In this document: positions 12,557 through 35,662 of the stretch, piece by piece | Position numbering within the stretch: the first letter of the stretch is position 1 | Layout: every line of letters starts with the position of its first letter | NCBI GenBank assembly: GCA_014324065.1 | Contig: JACOMV010000004.1 | Span: forward strand, 1 to 37,558 | DNA length: 37,558 bases | Origin: Hormoscilla sp. SP12CHS1 | Lineage (GTDB): Bacteria; Cyanobacteriota; Cyanobacteriia; Cyanobacteriales; Desertifilaceae | Direction of reading: 5' to 3' | The notes under the pieces: generated by a model | The model's database searches: none | What the model was told of the DNA's origin: nothing | The model's input: the letters and a program-made list of their open reading frames with translations, nothing else | Program-made: the position numbers and the translations under genes

Positions 12557-12585
12557 CAGGTTGGGCCACAAAAAATCAGCGTCCT

Positions 12586-13428
12586 ATGACAGAATTTTTT
12601 GGGAAATATCGCGGTACAGTCAAAAATAATCAAGACCCCAGCAAGCTGGGCAGACTTCAAGTAAGCGTGCCCGAGGTTCTGGACACAGATAACAAAAACT
12701 GGGCCCTGCCTTGCGTACCCTACGCTGGCAAAGATATAGGGATGTTTACAATCCCGCCAAAAGGCGCTAAGGTCTGGGTAGAATTTGAGGGCGGCAATCG
12801 AAATCGCCCGATTTGGACCGGCTGTTTCTGGGGAGATAATGAACTGCCTAAAGAAGCGGAGGTGGCTTACGAACAAAATAACGATCCAGCGGAGATTCAA
12901 GTTTTTAAGACTGAAGAACTCATTCTCATCTTGAGTAGGCGAAAGCAAAAAGAAGGGGTGACCTTGGAAGTAAAAATGCCTAAAAAGGATAAACAGAATG
13001 AGAAAAGGTTGCTGAAAGTGGTGTTAAATAAGGAGGGGATTGAAATCAAGAACGATAAGGAAACGCTGTTAAAAATGACAGAAGAGTTGCTGGAGTTTAA
13101 AAATCAGGAAACAATAGTGGATGTTGCAGCTAAGCATATCCAACTGAAGGAGAAGGAAGAGGGGGAGTTGAAGCTGGTGGCAGAGGGGATTGAATTGAAG
13201 AAAAAATCAGCAACGGCAAATTTGACCGAGGATGGCATTCAGCTAAAGAACGGTAAGTCAGAGGTAAAATTAGCTTCATCAGGGATAAAAATAAGCAATG
13301 ATGGCTCATCTGTAGAGGTGGACTCGAATAAAGTCAATGTCAAGAACAAAGCTGGGGCTGGCCTTAACCTATCTCAGGTGAAAGTAAAGATTGAAAACGG
13401 GACGGGTGCGGAACTAGAAGTAATGTAA
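12586..13428 (+). CDS. eCIS spike protein, gpV/gp5-like (second copy)
   Basis: 280 residues from ATG 12586. That start is chosen because MTEFFGKYRG aligns with MNKVFGKYRG of the first copy; an upstream ATG at 12523 adds 21 unrelated residues. The OB-fold (PCVPYAGKDIG, FTIPPKGAKVWVEFEGGN, RPIWTGCFWG) is followed by a Lys/Glu-rich beta-helix from about residue 125 (KEGIEIKNDKETLLKM, ELLEFKNQETIV and so on) ending in ELEVM like the first copy. The two proteins differ mostly in the needle part. It lies upstream of the wedge genes rather than beside a hub gene. No clear ribosome binding site is visible, and its start lies inside the third copy of the upstream repeat. Confidence 0.88.
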   Translation: MTEFFGKYRGTVKNNQDPSKLGRLQVSVPEVLDTDNKNWALPCVPYAGKDIGMFTIPPKGAKVWVEFEGGNRNRPIWTGCFWGDNELPKEAEVAYEQNNDPAEIQVFKTEELILILSRRKQKEGVTLEVKMPKKDKQNEKRLLKVVLNKEGIEIKNDKETLLKMTEELLEFKNQETIVDVAAKHIQLKEKEEGELKLVAEGIELKKKSATANLTEDGIQLKNGKSEVKLASSGIKISNDGSSVEVDSNKVNVKNKAGAGLNLSQVKVKIENGTGAELEVM

Positions 13429-19500: not shown

Positions 19501-22500
19501 CTGGAGCGAGCTGAATGATGGCTTGACTTCTACCGATGTTCGTGCTATAGAAAGCTATGTCGAAGGTGGCACTCGCTACATATTAGCAGGGACAGCAGAA
19601 GGAGTATTTCAATATAATGGCAGTATCTGGAGTGCTCTCAATGATGGCTTGGCGAATACTGATGTTCGTGCTATTAAAAGCTATGATGAAGGTGGCACCC
19701 GCTACATATTAGCGGGGACAGCAGGGGGAGTATTTCGACATGATAGCACCAACTGGAGTGATCTGAATGATGACTTGACGAATACTGATGTTCGTGCTAT
19801 AGAGAGTTATCAAGAAAATGGCTCCCAGATCGTATTGGCGGGGACAGCAGGGGGAGTATCGACGCGACGCCATGATGGCAGATGGAGCCAACTTACTACT
19901 GATTTGCCCTCGTCGGTCGGGGCCCTGGAAAGTTACGAACTCAATGGTACTCTCTACATCCTGGCAGGAACAGAAGAGGGTCTATTTCGCCGAGAACTGG
20001 ATGGCATTAGTTGGGACTATGATACTGGTTTGGGCCCTCTTAATGTCCGAGATATGGAGATTTATGCGGAAAAGGGCGATCGCTATCTGTTGGCTGGGAC
20101 GGAGAATGGCATATTTAGCCTAAATCTGGACGAGGCTGGCGCTAAATGGGAAGATATTAATTATGACTTGCCCCAGGACCAAACAAATATCTCTGCTCTG
20201 GCAACCTATGCGGAAAGTGGAGTCCGCACCATATTTGTGGGGACGACAGCAGGAGATGTATTTAACTTAAAGTCCGATCTCCAATCTTGGGTGAAATTAG
20301 ATAATCGCGTACCCACTGCAAATGAGTATCCACCAGAGATCCGCGCCCTGGCCACTTATGAGTTAGGGGACTCGCGCTACCTGTTGGCGGGGATAGTTGA
20401 GGGGGTATTTCGCCTCAGGCTGGGGGAAAATGCCTGGGAGTATTTTAATACTGACTTGCCCAATCCCAATGTTTGGGCTCTTAATATTTATTACGATAGC
20501 GGCGATATCTCCCTCTTGGCAGGCATTGAGGAAGATGGCATATTTGGGAGAGATCTGACAGACGTGACAGCTAGCTGGCGCCCGTTCTTCGATAGCGGGT
20601 CTGATGAAACAGTCAAGGCTCTGAAAACTTACGACTATAATGATACGCGCTATATCTTGACGGCGATCGCAACGGGAAGCATATGGAGTCGAGACTTGGG
20701 CGGTAATAGCTGGCAGCATCTGGCAGATGAGGGCTTGACCAATACTAATGTTCGCTGTCTCAAGATTTATCGAGACGATATTGACTACCTGTTGGCAGGG
20801 ACAGCAGGGGGTATATTTCGCCAAGAACTAAACAGTCAGACCTGGCACCGCTTCGATAATGGCTTGACGAATACTGACGTACATGCCCTGGAAATGTACT
20901 CGCAAAATGGAGAGTACGTTTTGGCGGGGACCGCAGAAGATGTATGTCGCCGCAAGCTGAATGAAAATACTTGGCAGAAGCTAGCCAGGGGATGGATAAA
21001 TCGGGAAGTCCGCGCTCTCAAGATTTACGATCGTAATGGCAAGCTCTACATCTTGGCGGGAACGGCTGAAGGGGTATTTTACCTAGATTTGAAGGAGGGC
21101 AGCGACGAACTCTGGATCTCCCTCAATAATGATTCCTCCGAGCAGAGATTGCTGGATAAGGATGTCCGCGTTCTGGATATTTACCAAGATGATGATGATG
21201 ACAAGTACTACATCTTGGCGGGGACGAAATCAGGGGTATTTAGCGGCTTGCTGGAGCGAGATGATGATGGTAAAGATACGGCGGTCTGGACCCAACTGAA
21301 TGAGCTATTGACCAATACCGATGTTTACAGCCTAGCTGTCTATACCGAGCAGAAGGAAGGCATTAGGGAGACGACCCTGTTTGCAGGCACCAGGGGCGGC
21401 AATGTCTACCGCTGGGAAATGTTTCGCGAAGATAGTGCCTGGGTACAAATGCGACTAGGTCTGGCTAATGATGTCCGGGCGATCGCCCTCAGCGACCGGG
21501 CTCAAGTATTTATCGGTACGCGCAACTGGAGCATCTTAAAAGGGACGGAAAGCGTGGAGGCCCAAGAAATGCAGCCCGAAGACTCCCTGTCTATTTGGCA
21601 GCGTCGCGAACTCACCTCCGATAAGAGCTTAAAGGCTATGTCTTCCCAGTCGGTCGTGGCTCCCGGCAGTTTAGTGCGCTGGGATCTGATCGATAAACTT
21701 GGGTTTAAGGGCGAGATTACTACCTCACTAGAGGAAATCAAACTGGAGGCTGCCGCTGAAGCAGACAAAATCGTCAGTGAGGTGGCATCCCTGCATAAGA
21801 TCAATCACGGACAACTGCGCACGACTCTCACTTACACCGAACCACTAACCAATACCTACGATCGCACGACAGTTACTATCAATGGCAATGTTGCCGTGGC
21901 TACCCACGGGGAGATAGTATCCGAGGAGGTAGTTGGTAGCGGTGATGGCAGCCAGATCAACCAGGCGTTCGTGCTGAAAAATCCTCCTTTAACCTATATC
22001 CCTGCTGACACGGCTAGCGGCAGCCAAAGCACCCTGACTGTGCGCGTGGATGGTTTGCTCTGGGGAGAAGTTTCCTCCCTCTACCAACTGACCTCCCCTA
22101 CACATAGCTATATGACCCGGATAGACGACGATGGCCAGACGCGCATTATCTTTGGCGATGGTTATAAGGGGGCCAGACCAACAACTGGTCAGGAAAATAT
22201 TACTGCTACCTACCGCTGTGGCATCGGTCCGGACGGAGAAGTTGAAGCTAACACTATTACCCTGGTGCAAACCGCTCCTTTAGGAGTGGTGGCAGTGACT
22301 AATCCTCAACCAGCTACGGGTGCGGCACCGCCAGAAACCCGAGACCAAGCTCGCCAAAATGCTCCCCTCAACACCCTGTCCTTGGACCGGATTATTTCTT
22401 TGCGGGATTACGAGTATTTTATCGGCGGCTTCTCTGGTATTGGTAAGGCTAAAGCTACGGCCCTGGCGATTCGGGAAGGCTATAGTATGGTGCAGGTGAC

Positions 22501-22987
22501 GATCGCAGGTCGCGATGGCGACCCGGTGGCTTCGGACTCCAATCTTTACAATCAAATTATCGAGGCTGTTGATGCTGCTCGCGACCCCACTTTGCGCGTG
22601 GGTGGTGGCTCCGCTTCTGAGTTCAGTCTTAACAGTTACCAGCGTCGCTTGTTTAATATTGCTGCCAAGCTCTGGATCGATCCGCAATATCTAGCCAGTG
22701 CCGTGATTCCCGAGGTGGAAAAGGTCCTGCAAGAGGCTTTTGCTTTTGAAGCCCGTGCCTTCGCTCAGGATGTAACGGCGGCGGAAATTGTGACTTTAAT
22801 TCAGTCCGTTCCAGGGGTTGACGGAGTTGACCTGGATGCGCTTTATTTAGAAGGTAGCGATCGACAGCTCAACCAAATCCTGGAAGCTTCCGAAGCTTTA
22901 TGGGATGGTCTGGCAGTCGAACCTGCAGAACTGCTATTGCTCAATCCCGCTGCTGGCAGTATAAATTTAGAGGAAGTGATTGCATGA
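16577..22987 (+). CDS. Giant baseplate wedge protein (Afp12-like) with two inserted beta-propeller blocks
   Basis: 2136 residues, far longer than the usual eCIS homologue. Residues 1-285 are a baseplate J-like start (VPGLKALSYRIARHDDSLKR, then FYQERIANEGFVNTATER and ELSRTVGYELDPGVAAS). Residues 289-660 are about seven blades with classic Asp-boxes (SRDEGKNW near 335, SIDLGESW near 378, SQDSGRTW near 445). The baseplate sequence resumes at 660-815 (NILAGSWLVL, then KRVATVLRNDFGQNGK), is broken again at 816-1660 by about 19 blades of the LAGTAGGVFRYDGTSW kind, and ends with a J-like C-terminal half (IIFGDGYKGARPTTG, SLDRIISLRDYEYFIGGFSG). Both joins keep the frame, so the protein looks intact. 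The propellers should project from the baseplate as binding or anchoring modules. Confidence 0.85.
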   Translation: MSSLENQPEEIYNVPGLKALSYRIARHDDSLKRMLASLHTQTTPPDQKDGDRPLEKLSTSHRNDPAIALLDGWATVMEVLTFYQERIANEGFVNTATERLSVLELSRTVGYELDPGVAASTHLAFTIEESDDVPEIVTVPSGVRVESVPIADEDPQVFETVETLEMRGAWNLLLPYFPLVTIPQEIGEETVELKLAGTDTQLAEGDPLLVVEEQVEPYESRYLTLLAVEPNDEEDYTLVYWSGGLGWEPRSELQLFALREQATLFGSDAGEWNELSPEEKRLYGHDTGGVLSYIDNQEWQSISTGLLKNADVRALVREPNTGSLFVGTHNGIFCSRDEGKNWLEMNVGLTNINIYSLAVNEKGYIFAGATEGNVFRSIDLGESWVEIGSGGVSVVEHTITNPGEDDQVEEWTPIETSLPSSIIRCLAVYDNIIYAGTEYGIFGSQDSGRTWKELNKGDKEPLNLSENITDLNGTIVYAIAIIEPKENVGTEEPKKDVGADDEIDDKIFVGTDRGVFFSKIDGNGWIDGNGWIDDNNGMSADIFYSLVVGNIGSNERLLAGTNAGVLLRNGNNNWVHKNTGDMTNETTVYSLSVASNESSEYLYAGTNQGVFRSQLSDEVGDWTQINNGLINQEIRSILGYFDKKQVEKLLAGSWFDSLYTREWPGFELADPQIDLNSTYANILAGSWLVLTHDDRSQAYKVKRVATVLRNDFGQNGKITRIHLETGEGLRDFGGEKYRETEVRLESEALELFEEVIQEEPPVEGDEIELDKVVPGLELERKIIISGKQMRVRIPPMGSVVRQSLLSDKTWATLKELWTYTDVNDLSIHRDSDREKLFAGTARGVLTLELGSDIWLDRTSIRVLNSYEEGGKHYILAGTAGGVFRYDGSSWKSLNTTGLTNTNVRSLTSYVEGEVPIILAGTAAGGVFRYDGTSWSELNDGLTSPDVRDLTNCLENGSPIILAGTAQGVFRYDGTSWSELNDGLTSTDVRAIESYVEGGTRYILAGTAEGVFQYNGSIWSALNDGLANTDVRAIKSYDEGGTRYILAGTAGGVFRHDSTNWSDLNDDLTNTDVRAIESYQENGSQIVLAGTAGGVSTRRHDGRWSQLTTDLPSSVGALESYELNGTLYILAGTEEGLFRRELDGISWDYDTGLGPLNVRDMEIYAEKGDRYLLAGTENGIFSLNLDEAGAKWEDINYDLPQDQTNISALATYAESGVRTIFVGTTAGDVFNLKSDLQSWVKLDNRVPTANEYPPEIRALATYELGDSRYLLAGIVEGVFRLRLGENAWEYFNTDLPNPNVWALNIYYDSGDISLLAGIEEDGIFGRDLTDVTASWRPFFDSGSDETVKALKTYDYNDTRYILTAIATGSIWSRDLGGNSWQHLADEGLTNTNVRCLKIYRDDIDYLLAGTAGGIFRQELNSQTWHRFDNGLTNTDVHALEMYSQNGEYVLAGTAEDVCRRKLNENTWQKLARGWINREVRALKIYDRNGKLYILAGTAEGVFYLDLKEGSDELWISLNNDSSEQRLLDKDVRVLDIYQDDDDDKYYILAGTKSGVFSGLLERDDDGKDTAVWTQLNELLTNTDVYSLAVYTEQKEGIRETTLFAGTRGGNVYRWEMFREDSAWVQMRLGLANDVRAIALSDRAQVFIGTRNWSILKGTESVEAQEMQPEDSLSIWQRRELTSDKSLKAMSSQSVVAPGSLVRWDLIDKLGFKGEITTSLEEIKLEAAAEADKIVSEVASLHKINHGQLRTTLTYTEPLTNTYDRTTVTINGNVAVATHGEIVSEEVVGSGDGSQINQAFVLKNPPLTYIPADTASGSQSTLTVRVDGLLWGEVSSLYQLTSPTHSYMTRIDDDGQTRIIFGDGYKGARPTTGQENITATYRCGIGPDGEVEANTITLVQTAPLGVVAVTNPQPATGAAPPETRDQARQNAPLNTLSLDRIISLRDYEYFIGGFSGIGKAKATALAIREGYSMVQVTIAGRDGDPVASDSNLYNQIIEAVDAARDPTLRVGGGSASEFSLNSYQRRLFNIAAKLWIDPQYLASAVIPEVEKVLQEAFAFEARAFAQDVTAAEIVTLIQSVPGVDGVDLDALYLEGSDRQLNQILEASEALWDGLAVEPAELLLLNPAAGSINLEEVIA
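17441..18565 (+). repeat. Propeller block 1: about seven Asp-box blades
   Basis: Encodes residues 289-663 of the giant wedge protein. Blades are marked by FVGTHNGIF, FAGATEGNVF, YAGTEYGIF, FVGTDRGVF, LAGTNAGVLL, YAGTNQGVF and LAGSWFDSLY. Several carry S-x-D-x-G-x-(T/S)-W Asp-boxes. DNA copies are well diverged, so the block is old. One short local duplication (DGNGWI twice, at about 18140-18170) is recent. Confidence 0.75.
19024..21560 (+). repeat. Propeller block 2: about 19 blades, partly young DNA repeats
   Basis: Encodes residues 816-1661. Each blade has the form (L/F)AGT-x-x-GVF, a YDGTSW-like degenerate Asp-box, then NDGLTNTDVRAL. Between about 19190 and 19870 the unit repeats every 126 bases (42 residues) with long identical stretches, for example TATGATGGCA at 19361 and 19487. 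Towards both ends blades diverge. Nineteen blades would make two to three propellers. Confidence 0.75.
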
Positions 22988-25572
22988 ACCAGTCAACAGT
23001 GAAGGAACGGCTTTATAACTTTTTACCCGCGATCTACCGCCGGCAAGATTTCCTTCTGGGAGAACCCCTCCGGGCCCTACTGGCGATCGTGGAGGGAGAA
23101 CTGGGCATCCTGGAAGCCGATATCTATAACCTCTACGAAAACTGGTTCATCGAAACCTGCGCTCTCTGGGTGATGCCCTATATTGCCGAATTGGTAGGCA
23201 TTTGGGACCTGAATGACCCGGAAAAAATCTTCCCCATTCAGCGCAGTCGCATTGGCAATACCATGCGCTACCGCCGCCATAAGGGTACTCCCAGAACTCT
23301 GGAACTGGTGATTGAGGATACCACGGGCTGGACGGCCCGGGTGGTGGAAATGTTTGAGTATGTAATCACCACTCAATACCTCCAACGCCCTCGCACCCAT
23401 CGCCCAGCTACCTTTACTCTGACTCAAAGCACGGAAATGGTGGCGATGCGGGATTATTTTGACAGTAATGCTCATACTTTAGATATCCGCGCCTTTGATG
23501 TCAATCGCGTCAGATATAACCTCAAGAGTCTCAGTCTATTTATCTGGCGTCTGGAAAGTTATCCGGTTAAACGCAGTACCCCCTGCTACCGCCGGGAAAT
23601 GAATATCCGCACCGTCCGGACTACTGACTGGCAAAGCAGCCCATATCAATTTGAAAACGCTGTTTTTGGCTTTAAAACCGCACCAAGTCAGCGGAAACTG
23701 ACTTTACCGGTCAGTCCCCGGCCTATGGTCAGTAAAAGGGCTTGCTATTATTTGTCTGTGGCCAAAAAGAATTGTTATCATTGTAAGCCGGCGGAGCTGA
23801 GCGCCAATCTCACGGGATGCTATACTTTCCATCCTCTGGGTTACGATATGCCTTTGTTCAACCGTCCCCAAACTAGAGAAAATCTGTGGGAACATAATCT
23901 CAACAGTAGCGAAATTCCCATGGCGATCGGTCAGGAGGCTTTTCAAGAAGATATTAGGCCGTACCAAATTGAGCCGGAGCCCGATAAGGAATGGGATAAG
24001 CTATTTATCAAAATATTTAACCTCAGGGACGAGTGGTACGATCTCGAAGACGATGTGGATTATCCTACGAAAAATAATAGTTTTCGTCTGGGATGGACGG
24101 AAACTGAATGTCGCAAGTCCTTTTCCCTGGAAGAGGTGCCGCCTCCAGAACCAGAACCGGAACCGGAGATCCCCCTCAATAGCCCATACTATTATGGACC
24201 CGATCGCAGTCTGGTGATATATATCCGTGTATGCAATCTCAAGGCCGAGAAGAGGCAAAGGCGCAAAAAGTGGCAGAAAGTTCGGGAGTTTCTGCCGATG
24301 CCCCCAGCTAAAATAGAGGCCAAAAGTTTAAGGGATTGGCAAGCTCCCTCTCCTGGTAAGATCGCAGTAGATGTGGAACTGGGACGGCTGATGTTCGCCC
24401 CCGGTGAAGACCCCGGTTGGGATAATTTACAGGTGAATTTTAGTTACGGCTTTAGCGGTAATATGGGTGGCGGTCCTTATAACCGAGGGGAAACTCTGGC
24501 AAACTATACAGATAATATTTGGTTGGTGGCCCGAAATGTTCCCGATGAGGAAAAAGATAACCCTTGGTGGTATACTAATCTGTCAGAGGCGATCGCGGCC
24601 TGGCAGGAAAGCGGCGAGGCCCACGGAATTATCAGAATCATGGATAATTATGCATACTTTAACAGTCGCAATCAAAGGGGAATGCCTATAGTACCGGAAC
24701 CCCTAGTGATAAAAATGAAGGGATGCGATCGCTTGACAATCGAAGCGGGGAATGGTTATAATCCTAGTATTAGTCCCCTAGGAGGCGATCTGATCGCGAT
24801 CGGAGACCAGCAGGAAGAGGCGACATTGCGACTTAATGGTTTGCTGTGCGGGGGTAAAATAGTGACGGCAGGAAATGTTAACCTGGAAGTGGACCACTGT
24901 ACGATTAGGCCCAAGCGAGATGCGGACCAAAAACAAGATAGTATTGTCGGAGTTGCCGAAAAGTCCTATAATATGAAGGTAGGGATTGCTAACAGCATGG
25001 TGGGGAATCTGGAACTGCCGGCAGCAAGCCAGGAACTGGTGGTGTTAGATAGTATTGTAGATGGAGGCCGGGGATACGCGATCGCGTCAAAGGAACAGAG
25101 CTACGGCCCGCAAACAAAAATCGAGCGAACGACAGTATTCGGGGGAGTATATAGTAAAAAGATGCTCTTAGGTTCGGAAACGATATTTACGAAACCGGTG
25201 ATGGTTCAAGAAAGGGAAGGTGGAGGCCTGCGCTATAGCTACGCGCCGGTAAAAATGCAAAAGGAGGAAGGCGATGATAGCTATAGCTACGCGCCAGTAA
25301 ATTCCCAAACGCCGGAACGCTATGAGTGCCAGCCGGAAAGCTCTGGGAAACCGGAACTGGAGCCGAGTTTTACTTCGCTAGAGTACGGGCAACCGGGTTA
25401 TACTCAATTAAGCCTGACTTGTCCGGATGAGATCGAAAATGGAGCGGGGAATGGGGCGGAAATGGGGGTGTTCAATAATTTGAAGCGACCTCAACGAGAA
25501 GCGAATCTAGAAGCGAGTTTGGAAGAATACGTGCGGTACGGTCTGGAAGTGAATAAAGTATACAAAAATTAA
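22984..25572 (+). CDS. Tail protein I-like baseplate protein with beta-helix-like region
   Basis: 862 residues from ATG 22984. That start is chosen because it forms the usual ATGA overlap with the stop of the giant wedge gene and aligns with the family's start (VKERLYNFLPAIYRRQD); the longer reading from 22900 only adds out-of-frame sequence. Residues 1-150 resemble P2 gpI-type proteins (LLAIVEGELGILEADIYNLY, GNTMRYRRHKGTPRTLELVI). The middle is unique and contains a short Pro-Glu linker (PPEPEPEPEIP). Residues 570-760 have short regularly spaced strands (LRLNGLLCGGKIVTAG, VNLEVDHCTIRP), like a right-handed beta-helix. It probably joins wedge and tail fibre, since the fibre gene follows at once. 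Confidence 0.78.
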   Translation: MNQSTVKERLYNFLPAIYRRQDFLLGEPLRALLAIVEGELGILEADIYNLYENWFIETCALWVMPYIAELVGIWDLNDPEKIFPIQRSRIGNTMRYRRHKGTPRTLELVIEDTTGWTARVVEMFEYVITTQYLQRPRTHRPATFTLTQSTEMVAMRDYFDSNAHTLDIRAFDVNRVRYNLKSLSLFIWRLESYPVKRSTPCYRREMNIRTVRTTDWQSSPYQFENAVFGFKTAPSQRKLTLPVSPRPMVSKRACYYLSVAKKNCYHCKPAELSANLTGCYTFHPLGYDMPLFNRPQTRENLWEHNLNSSEIPMAIGQEAFQEDIRPYQIEPEPDKEWDKLFIKIFNLRDEWYDLEDDVDYPTKNNSFRLGWTETECRKSFSLEEVPPPEPEPEPEIPLNSPYYYGPDRSLVIYIRVCNLKAEKRQRRKKWQKVREFLPMPPAKIEAKSLRDWQAPSPGKIAVDVELGRLMFAPGEDPGWDNLQVNFSYGFSGNMGGGPYNRGETLANYTDNIWLVARNVPDEEKDNPWWYTNLSEAIAAWQESGEAHGIIRIMDNYAYFNSRNQRGMPIVPEPLVIKMKGCDRLTIEAGNGYNPSISPLGGDLIAIGDQQEEATLRLNGLLCGGKIVTAGNVNLEVDHCTIRPKRDADQKQDSIVGVAEKSYNMKVGIANSMVGNLELPAASQELVVLDSIVDGGRGYAIASKEQSYGPQTKIERTTVFGGVYSKKMLLGSETIFTKPVMVQEREGGGLRYSYAPVKMQKEEGDDSYSYAPVNSQTPERYECQPESSGKPELEPSFTSLEYGQPGYTQLSLTCPDEIENGAGNGAEMGVFNNLKRPQREANLEASLEEYVRYGLEVNKVYKN

Positions 25573-25588
25573 CAAGAGGAGTTTGATG

Positions 25589-28500
25589 ATGAAAGGAGAT
25601 TTTACTCGTTGGACATTCGATGCGAGCAAGCAATACAGCAGCGTCAGGCTACAGCAAGGTCGGGTACTGTTAGATGCGGACTGGAACGAACAGCTAGATA
25701 TAATGGGCTACCGAGAGACGACGGCGAACAAAGAGATTATCGGACTCAATGGGGTGCCGAACTTGACGAGTTTTGCGATAGAGATTGATGAAGAGGGAGT
25801 AATTCAGTTAGGGAAAGGACTCTGTTATGTGGACGGGATCCTCTGTGAAAACGATGAGAATCAAGAGTCTAGTGGTGAAGAAGAAATCACAGGGGACTAC
25901 CTAGCATATTTAGAAGTATGGCAGCATCACGTTACGGCAATAGAAGCAGAAGAACTGCGAGAAAAAGCCCTGGGGGGACCGGATACAACGACGAGAACCC
26001 AGACTTACTGGCAAGTGAAGTTATCAAGATTTATTACGAGTGAAAGTCCTGAGAAATGGCAGGTAAAGTGGAAAAATTTTCTGGAAGAGAGAGAGCAAAA
26101 AGGGAAGCTAGTAGTCCGCGCAACAGGCACAACCATACTTCCGAACGATCTTTACAGAGTAGAAATTCATCAAGGGGGAAAGTACGAGGAGACGACCACG
26201 TTTAAGTGGGCGAGGAACAATGGCTCAATGGCGGCGCGAGTGGAAAGCATTGACAGTAATCGGGTGACGATAATTAGCAATCCTCAAGCTCAATTCCAGG
26301 TGGAAGATTGGATAGAAATTACTGACGAAGAAAAAGTGAAAGGGGGGGAACCAGGTTTTTTCGCGAAGATAAATAATATCCAAGGGAATGACCTGATACT
26401 GGATCCAGAAGCAGGGGACGAGATAATAGGTTTGGATCCTAGAAATATAATCACAACAGTGAGAATTTGGGGGGCTGAAGCAAGCACGATTGTCGAGGAG
26501 AATGAGGATGGAGGCTATAAAACGCTGGAGAATGGGATAGAAGTCAAGTTTGAAGAGAATGGGGCATCCAAATACAGGACGGGAGATTATTGGTTAATTC
26601 CGACCCGCTCTCAAGAGGAGATTGTGTGGCCACCAGGGGGAGAAGAACCCCACGGCATTGACTATCACTACTGTCCTTTGGCTATTGTCAAATATACGCA
26701 GGAGACTGATACATGGGAGTTTGTAAAGGACTGTCGGCAGGTTTTCCCGGGGATGACGGAGGTGGCGCGGGCAACGGCTGTTACAGATGATGACGGTATA
26801 ATAAAGGGCACGGAGTTGTCGATCGGGGTACAAAGCTACAATGACTCCCGTCGGGCCTATCCAGATGATGAGAAGGATAAATATACTGAAGATAACCTGG
26901 ACATTCAAGGTGGGAAGCATCTGAAGCTGAATGTCGGCTTTTGGAAAGATGAATTGGATGGAGTATTGTGGCCGGCAGATGGCGATCGGGTGGAGGGGAT
27001 GAGCTTCTGCGTGAGCGATCGCCCTCGGATGGAGCTGGACAAATATGGCAGGTTGGGCATTGGTCCTGGTGATGATGGCAGTGGTACGAAGGAGCCGAAA
27101 GCGTGGCTAGACTTGCAGCCAAACTGGTATACAGACGACGAGCCGCCAGCAAATGGGAATGAGGAGTACGTAGGCTTGCGTATTAACCCGACATTTCCTG
27201 GAGATGGGAAGAAGGAATATGGGCTGAAAGTAGAAAATAGCGATGTGGAAATAGGAGGCAATCTGACGGTTGAAGGGAAAAGCCACCTTAAGAGTATAGT
27301 CGGTATAGGGACGGCACCTGAAAAGACGATCGGGGTAAATGTAGGACTGAGCTTGAGTGTACCTGAAGGTGTAATTCCTGGTGAGGTAGTGGGGCTGAAG
27401 TTGCAACCGACTTTGAACGCGAGCAACACGGGGGACCAGCTGACAGGCTTACATATTAATCCTGTATTTCAAAACGACAGTCAAAGTGGCGTCAAGCATT
27501 ACGGGTTGATAGTAGAAAAGGGGAAAGTAGGCATTGGCACGATCGACCCTACTGCGGGGCTAGAGTTGACACCGACGTTGGATGCGAGCAATAACGACGA
27601 TCATCTCACAGGTTTGCTTATTAACCCCGATTTCCAGCATCACAGTCAAAGTGGAGTCAAAGACTATGGGTTGAAAGTAGAAAAGGGGAAAGTAGGTATT
27701 GGTAGCGCTCTGAATGACGATCGAAGTCTAGATATAGGGGTGGACGTGCGATCGGGCGTGATTGCCAGCAACAATAACGACAAGCTCGTCGGCTTATATA
27801 TCGAGCCAGAATTTGAGGATAGCAGCAAAAAAAATGTCGAGCACTATGGATTGATAGTACAAGAGGGTAAAGTCGCGATCGGCCCTCCTTCTGAGAATGT
27901 GTACCCAGTGGAGATTGATGGTTCCGAATCCAGAGTAGAAAATTTGGAAGTGACCGGAGATCTGGAGGTGCGAGGAAATGTAACATATTATGGTGATGTA
28001 GTTGCCTACGCGGTAGAAAAAGCAGCAGGACAAATCCTACTGGGGGACGATAATAGCGATCGGGTGGTAGTTCATGCAACCATGAGTTCGCAGCATACAT
28101 CAGGGAAGCTGAAGCTGACTAGTCCCTTGGAGATCGAACTGGGGGCTAGTCAGCAGGATTTCCTATCGCTGTTTTCTACTGCTGCTGCTGCTCCTAAAAG
28201 TCAAGCAGATGGCAGGATAGTCTGGAAAAAGGGTGTAGTCACAAAAGAGGGCTCCAACTCCGAGGATGGCGTCGGGGAAGAATATGAAGAAGAGTCGAAA
28301 ATATTAGCAGCTATTCATTCGTTTCTAAATGGCGCAGATGGAGATTTAAGGTTTGGAACGGCCAGCAGCGAGGATGACGAACCGCAAGACCGGATGGTTA
28401 TTACTGCCGAGGGGAATGTGGCGATCGGGTCCGAAGATCCAGGCACCAACAAGTTGAAAGTAACAGGTGGAACGACTTCCTTAGGCGGTGCTCTGACAGT

Positions 28501-29866
28501 AACCTCCGGAGGTGTGACCCTCACGGAAGGAGATGTGACGCTCGCGGATGGAGATGTGGTTCTCTCCGATGGAAGTGTGAATATAGTAGGCACAGAGCCA
28601 ACCGCGTCAAAGTTGACGGTCGGGGGTGCGACGAACTTAACAGGAAAGCTGACAGTAGCACCAGAGTTGTTCGGTGATAGCAGCTCGGCGGCGGAAATAA
28701 ATCCGATGTTGGCCGCTACTACTAACGATCAAGTCCTGTGTGCTGTGAAAATTAACCCAACCTTCACTGATAACGAGTACGATGAGACTGCGAAGAAGTT
28801 GGGACTGCATGTGGCCTCGGGAGATGTGGCGATCGACCAGGGAAGTCTGGCGATCGACCAGGGAAGTCTGGCGATCGGGGCTGAGGCAGTACCAAACAGT
28901 GAAAAGTTGTACGTAAATGGTAAAACTATCTTAGGCGGCACCCTGACTGCAAATGCTAGCGACACCTACTTGGCAGGAGCGGAAATAACACAGACTTTGA
29001 CGGCTACTGCTGCCAACCAAACCTTGAGTGCGTTGAAAATTCAGCCAACCTTCACTGAGAACGATCACGATGAAACTGCCAAGAAGTTGGGACTGCATGT
29101 GGCCTCGGGAGATGTGGGGATCTCCCAGGGAAGTCTGGCGATCGGGGTTGACTTTGAATCGGATTATAAGCTAATAGTTGCAGGCAATACTAAGATCAAA
29201 GGTAAAGATTTGGTGTTGCAAGTCGATGACAACGGAGACAAGCAAGGCGTGCTTTTCCAGAACAGCGGTGGTAAATATACCTGGCGGATTTACCGTGAAA
29301 ATGCGGATGATAGCCACGCCTATCTGAAAATTTCTGGGGGCTGGGAGGAAAATTCTACGGATCTGAGCGATCGCGTCACGATCGATAAGGATGGCGCTGT
29401 CGGCATTGGGAAGGATCCGGGAGTTATAGTTGCGGGCGACACGGTAATTGGTGACGGCGAACGACCCTCTGATGGTACTGCGGTCAAACTGGACGTGGAA
29501 GGAATAGTAAGGGGTCAAACTTTTGTAGAAGCAAGTGATGCCAAACAAAAAGAAAACATTCAACTCCTAAAAGACGGACTGGGAAAGATACTGGGATTGC
29601 GCGGCGTGACCTACAAATGGAAAGATGGCAAAGAAGCTGCCCAAAAGACAACAGAAATAGGACTGGTGGCCCAAGAGGTAGAAGCGATCTTCCCAGAACT
29701 GGTAATCACGGACTCTCAGGGGATGAAGTCTCTCAGCTATTCTAAGCTCATTGCTCCTCTGATAGAAGCTGTTAAGGAGCAACAAGCCCAAATTGTGGGA
29801 CTGGTCAACCAAGTTCAACAGCAACAAACTCAAATCGAACAGTTGCAAGCTCTCAATAATGGATAA
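25589..29866 (+). CDS. eCIS tail fibre: DUF6519-like N-terminus, beta-repeat shaft, S74 chaperone C-terminus
   Basis: 1425 residues from ATG 25589, chosen from TTG-ATG-ATG because AAGAGGAG lies seven bases upstream and relatives begin MKGDF. The N-terminal 430 residues (DFTRWTFDASKQYSSVRLQQ, then GRVLLDADWNEQ) match the DUF6519-type domain of eCIS loci, presumably the baseplate attachment. The shaft has repeated units (LKVEKGKVGIG; LTGLLINPDFQ; KKLGLHVASGDV), including a young AIDQGSL duplication at about 28830-28870. The last 110 residues are an intramolecular chaperone (peptidase S74): ASDAKQKENI with Ser1316-Asp1317 as the expected self-cleavage dyad, then EIGLVAQEVEAIFPELV and a Gln-rich coiled coil. 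The fibre should trimerise, then release its chaperone. Target unknown. Confidence 0.85.
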   Translation: MKGDFTRWTFDASKQYSSVRLQQGRVLLDADWNEQLDIMGYRETTANKEIIGLNGVPNLTSFAIEIDEEGVIQLGKGLCYVDGILCENDENQESSGEEEITGDYLAYLEVWQHHVTAIEAEELREKALGGPDTTTRTQTYWQVKLSRFITSESPEKWQVKWKNFLEEREQKGKLVVRATGTTILPNDLYRVEIHQGGKYEETTTFKWARNNGSMAARVESIDSNRVTIISNPQAQFQVEDWIEITDEEKVKGGEPGFFAKINNIQGNDLILDPEAGDEIIGLDPRNIITTVRIWGAEASTIVEENEDGGYKTLENGIEVKFEENGASKYRTGDYWLIPTRSQEEIVWPPGGEEPHGIDYHYCPLAIVKYTQETDTWEFVKDCRQVFPGMTEVARATAVTDDDGIIKGTELSIGVQSYNDSRRAYPDDEKDKYTEDNLDIQGGKHLKLNVGFWKDELDGVLWPADGDRVEGMSFCVSDRPRMELDKYGRLGIGPGDDGSGTKEPKAWLDLQPNWYTDDEPPANGNEEYVGLRINPTFPGDGKKEYGLKVENSDVEIGGNLTVEGKSHLKSIVGIGTAPEKTIGVNVGLSLSVPEGVIPGEVVGLKLQPTLNASNTGDQLTGLHINPVFQNDSQSGVKHYGLIVEKGKVGIGTIDPTAGLELTPTLDASNNDDHLTGLLINPDFQHHSQSGVKDYGLKVEKGKVGIGSALNDDRSLDIGVDVRSGVIASNNNDKLVGLYIEPEFEDSSKKNVEHYGLIVQEGKVAIGPPSENVYPVEIDGSESRVENLEVTGDLEVRGNVTYYGDVVAYAVEKAAGQILLGDDNSDRVVVHATMSSQHTSGKLKLTSPLEIELGASQQDFLSLFSTAAAAPKSQADGRIVWKKGVVTKEGSNSEDGVGEEYEEESKILAAIHSFLNGADGDLRFGTASSEDDEPQDRMVITAEGNVAIGSEDPGTNKLKVTGGTTSLGGALTVTSGGVTLTEGDVTLADGDVVLSDGSVNIVGTEPTASKLTVGGATNLTGKLTVAPELFGDSSSAAEINPMLAATTNDQVLCAVKINPTFTDNEYDETAKKLGLHVASGDVAIDQGSLAIDQGSLAIGAEAVPNSEKLYVNGKTILGGTLTANASDTYLAGAEITQTLTATAANQTLSALKIQPTFTENDHDETAKKLGLHVASGDVGISQGSLAIGVDFESDYKLIVAGNTKIKGKDLVLQVDDNGDKQGVLFQNSGGKYTWRIYRENADDSHAYLKISGGWEENSTDLSDRVTIDKDGAVGIGKDPGVIVAGDTVIGDGERPSDGTAVKLDVEGIVRGQTFVEASDAKQKENIQLLKDGLGKILGLRGVTYKWKDGKEAAQKTTEIGLVAQEVEAIFPELVITDSQGMKSLSYSKLIAPLIEAVKEQQAQIVGLVNQVQQQQTQIEQLQALNNG

Positions 29867-30365: not shown

Positions 30366-32723
30366 ATGCCAGTAACACCAACATATCCCGGGGTTTATGT
30401 AGAAGAAATTCCTTCAGGAGTGCGGACGATAACCGGAGTAGCGACTTCGATCGCGGCATTCATCGGTCGGGCCCCCAAAGGACCAGTAAACGAGCCAGTC
30501 CTCATCAACAACTACGGCGAATACGAGCAAATATTTGGCGGGTTATGGACGGAGAGTAATCTGGGCTTTGCTGTGCGAGATTTCTATAATAATGGCGGCA
30601 GTCAGGCGGTGATTGTCAGACTGTACAACGATCCTGGTGGTGATGTTCTAACAAAAACTCAGCTGTTTGTGCCCATCAGTAATGCAACAGTAACAGGGGG
30701 CACAGCAGCAGTAAATGGCACGGCAACAGTAAGTGGGGGGACGGCAACATTAACTAGAAGCATTGTCACAGGGAGTAGCGCAGCAATAGACAGCAATGAC
30801 ACGGTAAAAATAACAGGGGGCAGGGCAGAAGTAACAGGTAGTGGCACAGTAACGGCAACAGTAAATATCGGCACGGTACAAACAAGTACCATTACGGCAA
30901 CAATCACTGGGGGCACGGGCACGGTAACAGGAGGAACTGCAGAGGTAACAAACAGCACAATAACGGTAAGTAGCGGTACAATAAGTGGCGGGACAATAAT
31001 AACAGAAGACGGCAAAGTCACAGGGGGCACGGCCACGGTAACAGGGGGCACGACCACGGTAACAGGGGGCACGGCCACGGTAACAGGGGGCACGGCCACG
31101 GTAAGCAGCAGCGAAGTGGCTGACGATCAACCGTTAGAGAAAATAATAAGTTGCGGCAAAGTAACAGGGGGTGATGCAGAAGTAACAGGCGGCGTGGTAA
31201 CAGGTGCCCATCTAACGGTCACGGTTAGCATGGTAACAGGTTCCACGGCAACGGTGGACAACTCGGCGGAAGCAACGGTGATAGGTAATGTTTCGGCAGT
31301 AGAAGGGGAAGCTACATCTACAGTTTCTACGGGCGGCATAGTAACAGTAACGTTAACAGGGGGCACCGTAACAGGGGGCACCGTAGAAATAGATGGCACC
31401 CAAACAGCAACGGTAACAGGGGGCACGGCAACAATATCAGGGGACACAGTCACAGTCACGGGCGACGACGTTGAAACCTTGCAAATGTATATGAAGCTGG
31501 AAGGGGCAAACGAAGGCGCTTGGGGGAACGAGTTGGAGGCTGACGTGAACCATGATTTTCCAACGGATGATGATACTCAAGCGCAAGTAGCAGAGGAAAA
31601 CCTATTCAATCTATATGTCAAGGATAACGATACGGGAGTAGAAGAAATATTTCAGAATGTCTCGGAGAATTCAGACCACAAGCGCTACGTTAAAAATGTA
31701 CTAGAAAAAGATTCTCAATTGGTGCGGGTGTCTGGGGATGTGCCTAGTAAAGAAGAATTACCTGATGGAGGAGATGAATGGGATTATCTAAAATCATTGG
31801 CGATCCCGGCGGTAGATGGCGACCCGTTGCAAGTTAGCAACTTTACTGATGGAGAAAGCGAGAAAAAAGGAATTTATGCTCTGGAAAAGGCCGACCTGTT
31901 TAACTTGCTCTGCATCCCACCCTACAAGGATGACGGAAATGTAGACGTAGGGGTGATTGATGCAGCGATAATATATTGCGAGAAACGCCGGGCCATGATG
32001 ATTATCGACTCCCCCAGCGACTGGGCGAATAAGGAAGATGCGAAAACAGGGATTGATGGAGACGTGGGGTCCACCAGTAGGAATGCGGCCATCTTCTTCC
32101 CCCGCCTGGTGATGCCGAACCCCCTCAAGGACAATCAAATAGAAACATTTGCTGCTTGCGGGGCGGTGGCGGGCATCTTCGCCCGCACCGATGCCACCCG
32201 GGGTGTATGGAAAGCCCCAGCAGGTTTGGAAGCTGTCTTGCGGGGAGGAGTTTTGGCCCTCAGCGTCCCCCTGACAGACCCGGAAAATGGCGAGTTGAAC
32301 CCTCTGGGAATTAACTGCTTGCGCAATAAACCCCCAGCAGGTAAAATCGTCTGGGGTTCGCGCACTCGGGTAGGAGACGATCGCCTGGCTTCAGAATGGA
32401 AATACATCCCGGTGCGACGACTAGCACTGTACATGCAAGAATCATTGTATCGAGGTACGAAATGGGCAGTATTTGAACCGAACGACGAACCCCTGTGGGC
32501 GCAGTTGCGACTGAGTATCGGTTCCTTCATGAATAATCTTTTCCGCCAGGGAGCATTTCAAGGCAGTTCGGCCAGCGATGCCTACTTTGTCAAGTGCGAC
32601 AAGGAAACTACTACCCAATATGACATCGATCGGGGGATAGTGAACATCGTCATCGGGTTTGCGCCCCTGAAGCCAGCAGAATTCGTAATTCTCAAGTTCC
32701 AACAGATAGCAGGACAATCATAA
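30366..32723 (+). CDS. Contractile sheath protein 1 with a large Thr/Gly/Val repeat insertion
   Basis: 785 residues. Residues 1-88 are a normal sheath start (TPTYPGVYVEEIPSGVRTI, then FAVRDFYNNGGSQAVIVRLY). About residues 93-370 are an insertion made almost only of Thr, Gly, Val, Ala and Ser in TVTGGTATV-like units. From residue 375 the sheath fold resumes (EGANEGAWGNELEADV) and runs to the usual end (DIDRGIVNIVIGFAPLKPAE). The second sheath, directly downstream, lacks the insertion and is 263 residues shorter. A good GGGAGGAAG site precedes the ATG. Sheath subunits wrap the tube and contract to drive it. The insertion lies in the variable, outward-facing part of sheath proteins, so this subunit would carry a surface decoration. 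Confidence 0.9.
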   Translation: MPVTPTYPGVYVEEIPSGVRTITGVATSIAAFIGRAPKGPVNEPVLINNYGEYEQIFGGLWTESNLGFAVRDFYNNGGSQAVIVRLYNDPGGDVLTKTQLFVPISNATVTGGTAAVNGTATVSGGTATLTRSIVTGSSAAIDSNDTVKITGGRAEVTGSGTVTATVNIGTVQTSTITATITGGTGTVTGGTAEVTNSTITVSSGTISGGTIITEDGKVTGGTATVTGGTTTVTGGTATVTGGTATVSSSEVADDQPLEKIISCGKVTGGDAEVTGGVVTGAHLTVTVSMVTGSTATVDNSAEATVIGNVSAVEGEATSTVSTGGIVTVTLTGGTVTGGTVEIDGTQTATVTGGTATISGDTVTVTGDDVETLQMYMKLEGANEGAWGNELEADVNHDFPTDDDTQAQVAEENLFNLYVKDNDTGVEEIFQNVSENSDHKRYVKNVLEKDSQLVRVSGDVPSKEELPDGGDEWDYLKSLAIPAVDGDPLQVSNFTDGESEKKGIYALEKADLFNLLCIPPYKDDGNVDVGVIDAAIIYCEKRRAMMIIDSPSDWANKEDAKTGIDGDVGSTSRNAAIFFPRLVMPNPLKDNQIETFAACGAVAGIFARTDATRGVWKAPAGLEAVLRGGVLALSVPLTDPENGELNPLGINCLRNKPPAGKIVWGSRTRVGDDRLASEWKYIPVRRLALYMQESLYRGTKWAVFEPNDEPLWAQLRLSIGSFMNNLFRQGAFQGSSASDAYFVKCDKETTTQYDIDRGIVNIVIGFAPLKPAEFVILKFQQIAGQS
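30642..31475 (+). repeat. Low-complexity repeat array inside sheath gene 1
   Basis: Codes for the sheath insertion. The commonest DNA word is ACAGGGGGCACGG. At 31020-31103 four 21-bp units (ACAGGGGGCACGGCCACGGTA with one change) lie head to tail, giving TGGTATV four times. Units elsewhere are 12 to 30 bases and always multiples of three overall. The plus strand is poor in T in the repeat units. Confidence 0.85.
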
Positions 32724-32729
32724 CTGTAG

Positions 32730-32781
32730 GGTGGGCACCGCCCACCAGCACCAGCAGGGCCCACCAGGCAGGGCCCACCAG
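32730..32781 (+). repeat. Hairpin and 13-bp direct repeat between the sheath genes
   Basis: GGTGGGC-ACC-GCCCACC (32730-32746) is a compact hairpin seven bases after sheath gene 1. Two copies of CAGGGCCCACCAG follow (32755-32767, 32769-32781). A REP-like stabiliser or partial terminator that sets the ratio of the two sheaths is possible. Confidence 0.6.
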
Positions 32782-32817: not shown

Positions 32818-34386
32818 ATGCCAATAACACCAACTTATCCAGGGGTTTATGTAGAAGAACTGCCTTCAGGAGTGCGCACTATTGTAGGTGTAGCAACTTC
32901 AATCACGGCATTTATCGGTCGGGCCCTGCGGGGACCGACGGATGAGGCAATACTGATTAATAACTACGGCGAATATGAGCGCATATTTGGCGGCTTGTGG
33001 AATGAAAGTACCATGAGTTTCGCGGTGCGGGATTTCTACAATAATGGCGGGAGTCAGGCGGTGATTGTCCGACTTCAGAATGGGGGAGGGAAAGCAGCGT
33101 TTGAGGTGCCAAGCGAGCCAAGCCACGAGGACAATGTTCTAAATTTGGAAGCGGCAAACGAAGGGGCTTGGGGAAATAAATTGCAGGCGAAGATTGACCA
33201 GGATTTTCCCAGCAGCGAAGTAGGCAAAGCAGACGCAGAACTACTGTTCAACCTATCGATCCGAGACCAAGGAACGGGAGTAGTTGAAACATTTCTCAAT
33301 GTATCGGCCCTCGAAGGACACCCGCGCCAAGTAGATAAGGTACTGGAAAATACATCTGAATTGGTGCGGGCTACTGAACTACCGGCCGCTCGGCCTGACC
33401 CGACTGTCAACGCTGAAGATGATAATTGGGAGCCCGCTGATGGAGTAAGTGGTGGCGATGATGGCGATCGGATCACAGAAGACGAATTCATCCTGAGCAA
33501 AGAAGCAACTAAAGAGGGACTTTATGCCCTAGAGAATGCGGATCTGTTTAACTTGCTATGCATCCCGCCCTACTACCCAGGCGTAGATGGGGATGGGGAT
33601 ATAGATGGAACTTTAATTGACGCGGCCTTGATATATTGCGAGAAGCGCCGCGCCATGATGATTATCGACGCCCCCGGTAGTTGGAAGAATAAAGATGATG
33701 CGAAAACAGGGATTAATAGTACAGCGGATGTAGGAGCCACCAATACCAATGGGGCCATCTTCTTCCCGCGCATCGTGATGCCGAACTCCCTCAAGGACAA
33801 GCAATTAGAAATATTTGCTCCTTGTGGGGCGATCGCGGGGATATTCGCGCGCACGGATGCAACGCGGGGGGTATGGAAAGCGCCAGCGGGTTTGGAAGCA
33901 GTGTTAAAGGGAGTGATAGCTTTGAGCGTGCCCCTGACAGACTCGGAAAATGGGGAGTTAAACCCCAAAGGGATTAACTGCTTACGATCGATGCCACCAG
34001 CGGGTCGGATAGTCTGGGGCGCGCGGACGCGGGTAGGGGACGACATGCTGGCGTCGGAATGGAAATACATCCCGGTGCGACGACTGGCGCTGTACATGCA
34101 AGAATCATTGTATCGGGGTACCCAATGGGCGGTATTTGAACCGAACGACGAACCCCTGTGGGCGCAGTTGCGACTGAATATCGGCTCCTTTATGGATAAT
34201 CTCTTCAAGCAGGGAGCATTTCAAGGCAGTTCGGCCAGCGATGCCTACTTTGTCAAGTGCGACAAGGAAACCACGACCCAGTATGATATCGATCGGGGGA
34301 TAGTAAACATCATCATCGGGTTTGCGCCCTTAAAGCCAGCAGAATTCGTGATTCTCAAGTTCCAACAAATAGCGGGACAAGCATAA
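32818..34386 (+). CDS. Contractile sheath protein 2
   Basis: 522 residues, the normal size. It has the same start (TPTYPGVYVEELPSGVRTI) as sheath 1, no repeat insertion (IVRLQNGGGKAAFEVPSEPS bridges the site), a variable middle, and a C-terminal half almost identical to sheath 1 (GIFARTDATRGVWKAPAGLE; YMQESLYRGTQWAVFEPNDE). AAAAGGAGA precedes the ATG. Two or three sheath genes are common in eCIS (Afp2-4); the copies can form different rings. It is followed ten bases later by the tube gene. Confidence 0.93.
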   Translation: MPITPTYPGVYVEELPSGVRTIVGVATSITAFIGRALRGPTDEAILINNYGEYERIFGGLWNESTMSFAVRDFYNNGGSQAVIVRLQNGGGKAAFEVPSEPSHEDNVLNLEAANEGAWGNKLQAKIDQDFPSSEVGKADAELLFNLSIRDQGTGVVETFLNVSALEGHPRQVDKVLENTSELVRATELPAARPDPTVNAEDDNWEPADGVSGGDDGDRITEDEFILSKEATKEGLYALENADLFNLLCIPPYYPGVDGDGDIDGTLIDAALIYCEKRRAMMIIDAPGSWKNKDDAKTGINSTADVGATNTNGAIFFPRIVMPNSLKDKQLEIFAPCGAIAGIFARTDATRGVWKAPAGLEAVLKGVIALSVPLTDSENGELNPKGINCLRSMPPAGRIVWGARTRVGDDMLASEWKYIPVRRLALYMQESLYRGTQWAVFEPNDEPLWAQLRLNIGSFMDNLFKQGAFQGSSASDAYFVKCDKETTTQYDIDRGIVNIIIGFAPLKPAEFVILKFQQIAGQA

Positions 34387-34395
34387 GGAGGAAAA

Positions 34396-34920
34396 ATGGC
34401 TCAATTTTCAGTAAATACGGAACGGTTTGACCCATACAAAAACTTCAAATTCCGGGTAAAATGGGATGGGGTATATGTAGCGGGGGTAAGTCGGGTGAGT
34501 GCCTTAAGTCGGACGACGGAGGTAGTGGAACATCGGACGGGAGGAGACCCCAGCAGTCCTCGGGTATCCCCGGGACAAACGAAGTACGAAGCCATAACCT
34601 TAGAACGGGGGGTAACCCACGACCCGGCATTCGAGCAATGGGCCAATAAGGTCTGGAACTACGGTGCGGGTTTGGGAGCAGAAGTGTCCCTGTTGGACTT
34701 CCGCAAGGATATCATTATCGAGGTGATGAACGAAGCGGGACAGGTGGCGATCGCCTACAAAGTATATCGGTGCTGGGTATCGGAGTTCCAAGCGCTGCCA
34801 GAGTTAGATGGGGGGGGAAATGAGGTAGCAATTCAGAGCATTCAGCTGCAAAATGAAGGATGGGAACGTGACTATGACGTGACGGAACCGTCAGAACCAA
34901 GCTTCACTGAACCGGCATAG
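34396..34920 (+). CDS. Inner tube protein (gp19/Hcp-like, Afp1/5-type)
   Basis: 174 residues. The fold is shown by YKNFKFRVKWDGVYVAGVSR, the RTGGDPSSPRVSPGQTKYEA loop, ITLERGVTHDPAFEQWANKVW, then SLLDFRKDIIIEVMNEAG and YKVYRCWVSEFQALPELDG; this is the T4 gp19-like tube family. Hexameric rings of it form the channel inside the sheath. A perfect AAGGAGGA site lies directly upstream, fitting the need for many copies. Only one tube gene is present in the window. It ends seven bases before the next gene. Confidence 0.93.
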   Translation: MAQFSVNTERFDPYKNFKFRVKWDGVYVAGVSRVSALSRTTEVVEHRTGGDPSSPRVSPGQTKYEAITLERGVTHDPAFEQWANKVWNYGAGLGAEVSLLDFRKDIIIEVMNEAGQVAIAYKVYRCWVSEFQALPELDGGGNEVAIQSIQLQNEGWERDYDVTEPSEPSFTEPA

Positions 34921-34927
34921 AATCCCA

Positions 34928-35662
34928 ATGCGACCACTAACAGCTTCCGAACTAATTCGCGGCTGGGAAGTAGGACAGAGTCAACATGCCCTAGACAGGG
35001 CGTTGACTCTTCTGAGTCTCGCTTGTCCGGGTTATAGTCAGGCTGAACTGGCTTCTCTGAGTATCGGACAGCGGGACGCATATCTATTAACCCTGCGAGA
35101 AATCACCTTCGGAGAGGAGATGAACGGTTGGGCAGACTGTCCCCAATGTAGCGAACGGTTAGAGTTTAACATGAAAACTTCCCAGATGAGGTTGGTAGAA
35201 GTGCTCGAACCGCAAGTAGCAGAATATAGCCTAAAAATGGGAGAGTGGGAGTTGGGCTTTCGCTTGCCCAATAGCTGGGACTTAGCTGCTATAGTGGGGG
35301 AAACAGATGTGGAGAGGGCAGCAGCACGACTGCGGCAAAGATGTCTGAGTTGGGCTTTGTTCGAGGGAGTAGAGGTAGGCTATAATCACCTACCAGAAGA
35401 GGCGATCGCGGCGATGGTAGAGTCAATAGCAGCAGCGGACCCCCAGGCAGAAATATTGCTAGACTTAAGTTGTCCGGCCTGCGGTCACAAGTGGCAAGTC
35501 ATGCTAGATATAGTGTGGTTTTTGTGGAAAGAAATCAGCGCCCGGGCCCAGAGGATCCTCCAAGAGGTGCATATGCTAGCCCGGTTCTATGGATGGCGAG
35601 AGGCAGATATACTATCTATGAGTACGGTCCGACGGCAGTGTTATTTAAATTTAGTAGGCTAA
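34928..35662 (+). CDS. Baseplate hub assembly chaperone, T4 gp26/gp51-like, with two CxxC pairs
   Basis: 244 residues. The helical start (TASELIRGWEVGQSQHALDR) and LREITFGEEMNGWADCPQCS are typical of the T4 gp26/51-like proteins that follow the tube gene in eCIS clusters. Cys71-Cys74 (CPQC) and Cys182-Cys185 (CPACGHKW) can form a split zinc ribbon around the central domain. The C-terminal 60 residues are helical and basic (LWKEISARAQRILQEVHMLA). The stop shares one base with the next start (TAATG). It probably helps assemble the hub rather than remaining in the particle, as inferred from T4. Confidence 0.75.
   Translation: MRPLTASELIRGWEVGQSQHALDRALTLLSLACPGYSQAELASLSIGQRDAYLLTLREITFGEEMNGWADCPQCSERLEFNMKTSQMRLVEVLEPQVAEYSLKMGEWELGFRLPNSWDLAAIVGETDVERAAARLRQRCLSWALFEGVEVGYNHLPEEAIAAMVESIAAADPQAEILLDLSCPACGHKWQVMLDIVWFLWKEISARAQRILQEVHMLARFYGWREADILSMSTVRRQCYLNLVG

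Follow-up and report, generated by a model that had tools for sequence, protein, structure and literature searches.

Two neighbouring genes of a cyanobacterium encode contractile sheath proteins that resemble each other at both ends, and only one of them carries a long insertion rich in threonine, glycine and valine. The question raised by this locus is how such an insertion is accommodated in a contractile sheath, and what it might do there. The DNA analyzed here, referred to as the window, comprises 37,558 nucleotides of Hormoscilla sp. SP12CHS1 (contig JACOMV010000004.1, positions 1-37,558, forward strand). An earlier note on this DNA had proposed that the insertion forms a beta-solenoid or a glycosylatable coat on the outside of the tail, giving a mixed sheath of plain and decorated rings. 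As a whole, this interpretation is partly supported by the results presented below.

The relevant features of the window are as follows, with the basis of each assignment in brackets.

7354-8169 (reverse strand) and 12523-13428 (forward strand): two Phage_base_V proteins, encoded on opposite strands of one cluster (Pfam)
22900-25572, forward strand: Tail_P2_I-family baseplate protein of the same cluster (Pfam PF09684, E 4.8e-6)
25583-29866, forward strand: protein with DUF6519 and Peptidase_S74, upstream of the sheath genes (Pfam)
30366-32723, forward strand: sheath 1, a decorated Cis2-type sheath protein of 785 aa (open reading frame, Pfam, paralogy, AlphaFold2)
30675-31472, forward strand: Thr/Gly/Val array of sheath 1, residues 104-369 (266 aa), with heptad units of the TVTGGTA type (composition, colinear homologue)
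31020-31104, forward strand: four 21-bp units inside the array, with 96% matches (repeat search)
32818-34386, forward strand: sheath 2, the plain paralogue of 522 aa (open reading frame, Pfam)
34396-34920, forward strand: inner tube protein of the T4 gp19 family (Pfam PF06841, E 4.8e-45)
34928-35662, forward strand: T4_baseplate-family protein of the contractile injection system (CIS) cluster (Pfam PF12322, E 1.2e-12)

Further members of the cluster identified by Pfam were gp25, CIS_tube, Pvc16_N, an AAA ATPase, and three eCIS_core proteins. Genes for tube, sheath, spike, baseplate, AAA ATPase, a Pvc16-like cap, and eCIS_core cargo, which together mark an eCIS gene cluster, were all found, and by gene content the cluster is an eCIS-type contractile injection system. 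The three eCIS_core (PF13699) genes lie close together downstream of the window (L051, 4938-7343, 7789-9576, and 11744-13591), and their products are candidate CIS cargo. The DUF6519/S74 protein is possibly a tail fibre. It also contains 21-bp (7-residue) tandem repeats, located at 28508-28580 and 28827-28877 (e.g., GDVTLAD/GDVVLSD). Another tandem repeat, five copies of 126 bp at 19195-19859, is part of a 2136-aa open reading frame with weak matches to Pfam families of the beta-propeller type.

Comparison of the two sheath proteins revealed 80% identity over residues 1-91 and 72% identity over residues 376-785 (sheath 1 numbering), with nothing alignable in between. The interval between the anchor residues L86 and W386 measures 299 residues in sheath 1, 31 in sheath 2, and about 23-39 in plain relatives, which confirmed the earlier observation that the paralogues align at both ends and that an array has been inserted into one of them. 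Both proteins scored above the curated Pfam cut-off for Phage_sheath_1C; for Phage_sheath_1, sheath 2 exceeded the cut-off and sheath 1 fell 0.8 bits below it. The conserved N- and C-terminal core with a sheath fold, by which the family is recognized, was recovered by Pfam and by the match of the AlphaFold2 model to solved sheaths (Z 35-40). A protein search of the genome found sheath 1 and sheath 2 as the only sheath genes. A sequence resembling a ribosome-binding site precedes the start codon of sheath 1. Both cores are intact and under strong purifying selection, and only about ten fixed differences separate the cores of decorated and plain sheaths.

Two smaller observations concern this gene pair. 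At about residue 628 of sheath 1 (about 32247-32252), the conserved core motif LRG-GV contains an additional glycine that none of the other aligned sheaths shares. Between the two genes, at 32729-32746, the palindrome GGGTGGGCACCGCCCACC is predicted to fold as a hairpin. The GGGTGGGCACCGCCCACC pattern occurs 76 times in the draft genome and is therefore a dispersed repeat; at this position, the hairpin could attenuate read-through from sheath 1 into sheath 2.

The insertion had originally been delimited as 30642-31475, corresponding to residues 93-370. The array proper is somewhat narrower, spanning residues 104-369. Within it, threonine accounts for 26.7%, glycine for 18.0%, and valine for 14.3% of all residues, next to a single proline and no aromatic residue. 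The tetrapeptide TGGT occurs 10 times, compared to a mean of 0.6 and a maximum of 4 in 2000 shuffles of the same composition, and the self-identity of the array is highest at a lag of seven residues (0.27 versus 0.15 expected). The near-identical 21-bp units at 31020-31104 mark the part of the array that expanded last and point to recent local growth inside a domain that is itself older. The codons of the array are skewed toward ACA/ACG, GTA, and GGC/GGG. Open reading frames on the opposite strand or in other frames over the array were rejected as genes because they are predicted by the codon content: the longest has 150 codons, compared to a mean of 230 after codon shuffling.

A homologue of the array was found in the orthologous sheath of Hormoscilla GUM202 (L037:1260-3677), which carries a colinear array of 288 residues with 44% identity. 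The alignment of the two arrays scored 166 bits, and the highest score of 200 shuffles was 78 bits; because the colinear match exceeds all shuffles, the array is a real conserved feature and not a product of chance. Synonymous and nonsynonymous divergence between the two arrays amounted to dS 0.85 and dN 0.45 (dN/dS 0.54), values to be read with the repeats in mind, which make the alignment uncertain in places. For the flanking core of the same pair, dS was 0.89-0.91 and dN 0.11 (dN/dS 0.12-0.13). In this pair, the array is thus as old as the core, and its protein sequence changes about four times faster. Neither stop codons nor frameshifts interrupt it in the window genome or in GUM202. No homologue was found among 148 relatives except for GUM202, none was found in phages, plasmids, or viral contigs, and a comparison with Pfam gave no family match. 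Among the genomes searched, the array is confined to one genus.

The earlier note had missed that orthologues hold unrelated modules at the site of the array. The longer member of the Moorena sheath pair, a protein of 801 aa, accommodates about 290 residues at this position, arranged in three units of about 60-70 residues, which look mostly helical as judged by composition and sequence appearance. Hormoscilla GUM202 encodes three sheaths in tandem: a plain protein (531 aa), one with a helical-type insert (b, 688 aa), and one with the Thr/Gly/Val array (c, 806 aa). The insert of sheath b is related to that of Moorena (41% identity over 93 residues, E 2e-16), and the helical-type insert is unrelated to the Thr/Gly/Val array. 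In addition, Ala-rich inserts, again labelled by composition and sequence appearance, occupy the same anchor interval in L077 (193 residues) and L052A (112 residues). Judging by these sequences, the insertion site is modular, with unrelated modules swapped among orthologues.

A second insertion site was observed ahead of the motif 'GLYALE', where about 310-390 residues are inserted in L043, L044, L089, L091, L094, and L095, which are sheaths from other cyanobacteria and from IMG/VR. Three IMG/VR contigs listed as 'viral' (L052, L053, and L054) encode tandem pairs of eCIS-type sheaths, accompanied by a tube gene in L052 and L053; they resemble pieces of CIS clusters from bacteria more than phages.

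The position of the insert relative to the sheath fold was explored with AlphaFold2. A model of sheath 1 based on 14 closely related alignment rows reached a pLDDT of only 41.7. With 92 diverse rows, the mean pLDDT rose to 72.6; this mended the core, and the array stayed low. In the latter model, the core mostly scored above 90, residues 377-456 of the peripheral segment reached about 90, and residues 92-372 mostly stayed below 50. The modelled core matched solved CIS sheaths (Foldseek/VIA-align), namely Streptomyces coelicolor Cis2 (Z 40.6, 341 residues), the H. borinquense sheath (Z 39.7, 464 residues), and Anabaena Cis2 (All3325, 7b5h; Z 32.7, 354 residues); these matches cover the sheath core only and say nothing about the fold of the array. 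Structure prediction, as suggested in the earlier note, therefore yielded an intact sheath fold matching solved CIS sheaths, and no confident fold for the array.

The model places the insert between the core strand 80-86 and the strand 377-380, with which the confidently predicted part of the peripheral domain opens. The insertion point would accordingly coincide with the start of domain 3, an exposed outer domain, and in the model the contraction core is free of the insert. In the Streptomyces Cis2 sheath, domain 3 is located at the surface and too flexible to be resolved (PMC10066040). The corresponding domain of a Roseiflexus sheath was the target of a designed antibody and is exposed on the outside of the assembled sheath (PMC12998442), and Anabaena Cis2 has one extra peripheral domain compared to Pvc2/Afp2 (PMC8894136). 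Based on homology to domain 3 of these known CIS sheaths, the insert most likely projects outward in the assembled sheath. No significant match of the array was found in the PDB; the best hit, a very weak lead, was the ice recrystallization inhibition protein 3ult, which has short repeats (E 0.88). With regard to a possible beta-solenoid, the heptad TATVTGG is of a kind that could form short strands joined by tight turns. With respect to a glycosylated coat, no glycosyltransferase families were found among the scanned neighbouring proteins.

A tree built from the insert-free sheath core separated a decorated clade (Moorena, window sheath 1, and GUM202 b and c; support 0.985) from a plain clade (support 0.984). 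The position of window sheath 1 inside the decorated clade had a support of only 0.034. The existence of separate clades in the core tree implies that the duplication is older than the split of Moorena and Hormoscilla. Within genomes, the cores show stretches of local similarity. Sheaths b and c of GUM202 are 100% identical at the nucleotide level over residues 584-664, and over the last 300 residues their dS is 0.20, whereas dS relative to the plain copy is about 0.87. Sheath 1 and sheath 2 of the window have 92% identical codons for residues 705-744 (65% between orthologues), and the two proteins have private residues in common at positions 536, 690, 693, 697, 736, and 737. The simplest reading of this local homogenisation is gene conversion. 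Gene conversion would maintain similar cores next to differing inserts; this is consistent with co-assembly without proving it. In Hormoscilla GM7CHS1pb (L041, 4563-8276), two reading frames share the decorated sheath gene, and the plain gene is interrupted close to its end; either true decay or sequencing errors could account for these breaks.

The explanation that we consider best, and more probable than otherwise by a moderate measure, is that the cluster encodes an eCIS with a plain sheath protein and a paralogue that bears an exchangeable surface module at the start of the peripheral outer domain. An old tandem duplication of an eCIS sheath gene would have given rise to sheath 1 and sheath 2. 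Sheath 1 has a complete core, comprising the N-terminal strand, the wall domains, and the C-terminal strand. It would be expected to form polymers together with sheath 2, since both cores are intact and under strong purifying selection. The array of roughly 270 residues would sit as an exchangeable module where the peripheral domain of sheath 1 begins, and some or all rings would present it on their outside as a hydrophilic, Thr-rich coat or adhesive that is either flexible or rich in beta structure. Sheath 2 would provide the undecorated subunits. We infer that both proteins co-assemble in one particle, and the array may act as an adhesive, a coat, or a spacer. Mixed plain and decorated rings are plausible on account of the purifying selection on both genes, the local homogenisation, and the detection of these two sheath genes only. 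On the other hand, tandem genes can undergo conversion even if their products do not assemble together, and the occurrence of the array in one genus possibly reflects a lineage-specific, weakly selected expansion.

Such an expansion might also be neutral, with a 21-bp seed grown by slippage in a tolerant surface loop and no function attached to the product. The four near-identical 21-bp copies and a skewed codon use that matches amplification of a small seed are what this process would leave behind, and the array is both limited to one genus and faster in protein evolution than the core. Against it stand the array of a second species, which is colinear, 44% identical, and free of stops and frameshifts at a synonymous divergence of about 0.85 and a dN/dS of 0.54, and the independent long inserts that other orthologues have at exactly the array site; neutral growth appears unlikely to us. 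Sheath 1 could alternatively form a specialised minor ring close to the baseplate or the cap, like the extra sheath proteins of PVC and AFP, where the array would dock fibres or the upstream surface proteins and would not act as a coat. AFP and PVC have three sheath proteins of different size (PMC8894135), and the decorated gene adjoins a gene of the DUF6519-S74 type in the window genome and in relatives. Cores that are 72% identical between sheath 1 and sheath 2, with so few fixed differences between decorated and plain sheaths, speak against such specialisation, and we regard it as improbable.

It seems very unlikely that sheath 1 is a duplicate in decay and is left out of the particle. This reading could draw on the single-glycine insertion at about residue 628, unique among the aligned sheaths, and on the frame breaks in both GM7CHS1pb genes, which are possibly sequencing errors. 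However, the core of sheath 1 has a dN/dS of 0.12-0.13 relative to its orthologue, a ribosome-binding-like sequence lies ahead of its start codon, and decorated orthologues have been retained in Moorena genomes and in Hormoscilla GUM202. Returning to an exchangeable module beside a plain copy, a wider and more tentative idea, which we hold to be possible but rather less than even in probability, is that the sheath serves as a modular display platform: paralogues with cores matched by conversion would co-assemble, and one of them would swap modules at a fixed site, producing mixed or patterned decoration. If this were true, particles of symbiotic or marine cyanobacteria would be decorated for adhesion, coating, or contact between particles.

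No direct description of decorated or alternating sheath paralogues of this kind was found in the open-access literature. Among the closest known systems are AFP and PVC, whose sheaths are built of several paralogues, the layers following a specific intermittence (PMC9230969, PMC8894135). One particle of these systems contains several paralogous sheath proteins of different size (Afp2/Afp3/Afp4 and Pvc2/Pvc3/Pvc4), and Hormoscilla likewise encodes such paralogues. In contrast to AFP and PVC, the Hormoscilla paralogues are cyanobacterial, about 72% identical, and set apart by a repeat array, and those of relatives by unrelated modules at the same site. The thylakoid-anchored CIS of Anabaena (PMC8894136) is likewise cyanobacterial; its Cis2 (All3325, 7b5h) shares the fold and has an extra peripheral domain (PMC8894136). 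Unlike the Hormoscilla cluster, it builds its sheath from one protein, Cis2, in 23 layers, and has no tandem decorated copy. The nearest solved structures are Cis2 of Streptomyces CISSc, with its flexible domain 3 at the surface, and the sheath of the haloarchaeon H. borinquense; CISSc differs in having a single sheath protein and no Thr/Gly/Val array. Outward extra domains are also known from large multi-domain phage sheaths (types 2 and 3; Evseev et al., 2022) and from AlgoCIS Alg2 (domains III and IV) (PMC9230969, PMC8894135). Those are mostly folded domains, Ig-like or helical, whereas in Hormoscilla a low-complexity heptad array is present in one of two tandem copies.

The type of machine, the existence of CISs with multiple sheath proteins, and outward extra domains on sheaths are thus already known, and the cluster is not a new class of machine. 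What is new, as a variant, is this particular array, the fact that just one of the two tandem copies carries it, and a site at which unrelated modules are exchanged. The results point to a natural site in a CIS sheath that accepts inserts of nearly 300 residues and of differing kinds, with the core apparently unharmed and a plain copy alongside. This opens to test the purpose of surface decorations on a contractile sheath, and the occurrence of mixed or patterned sheaths from tandem paralogues beyond AFP and PVC.
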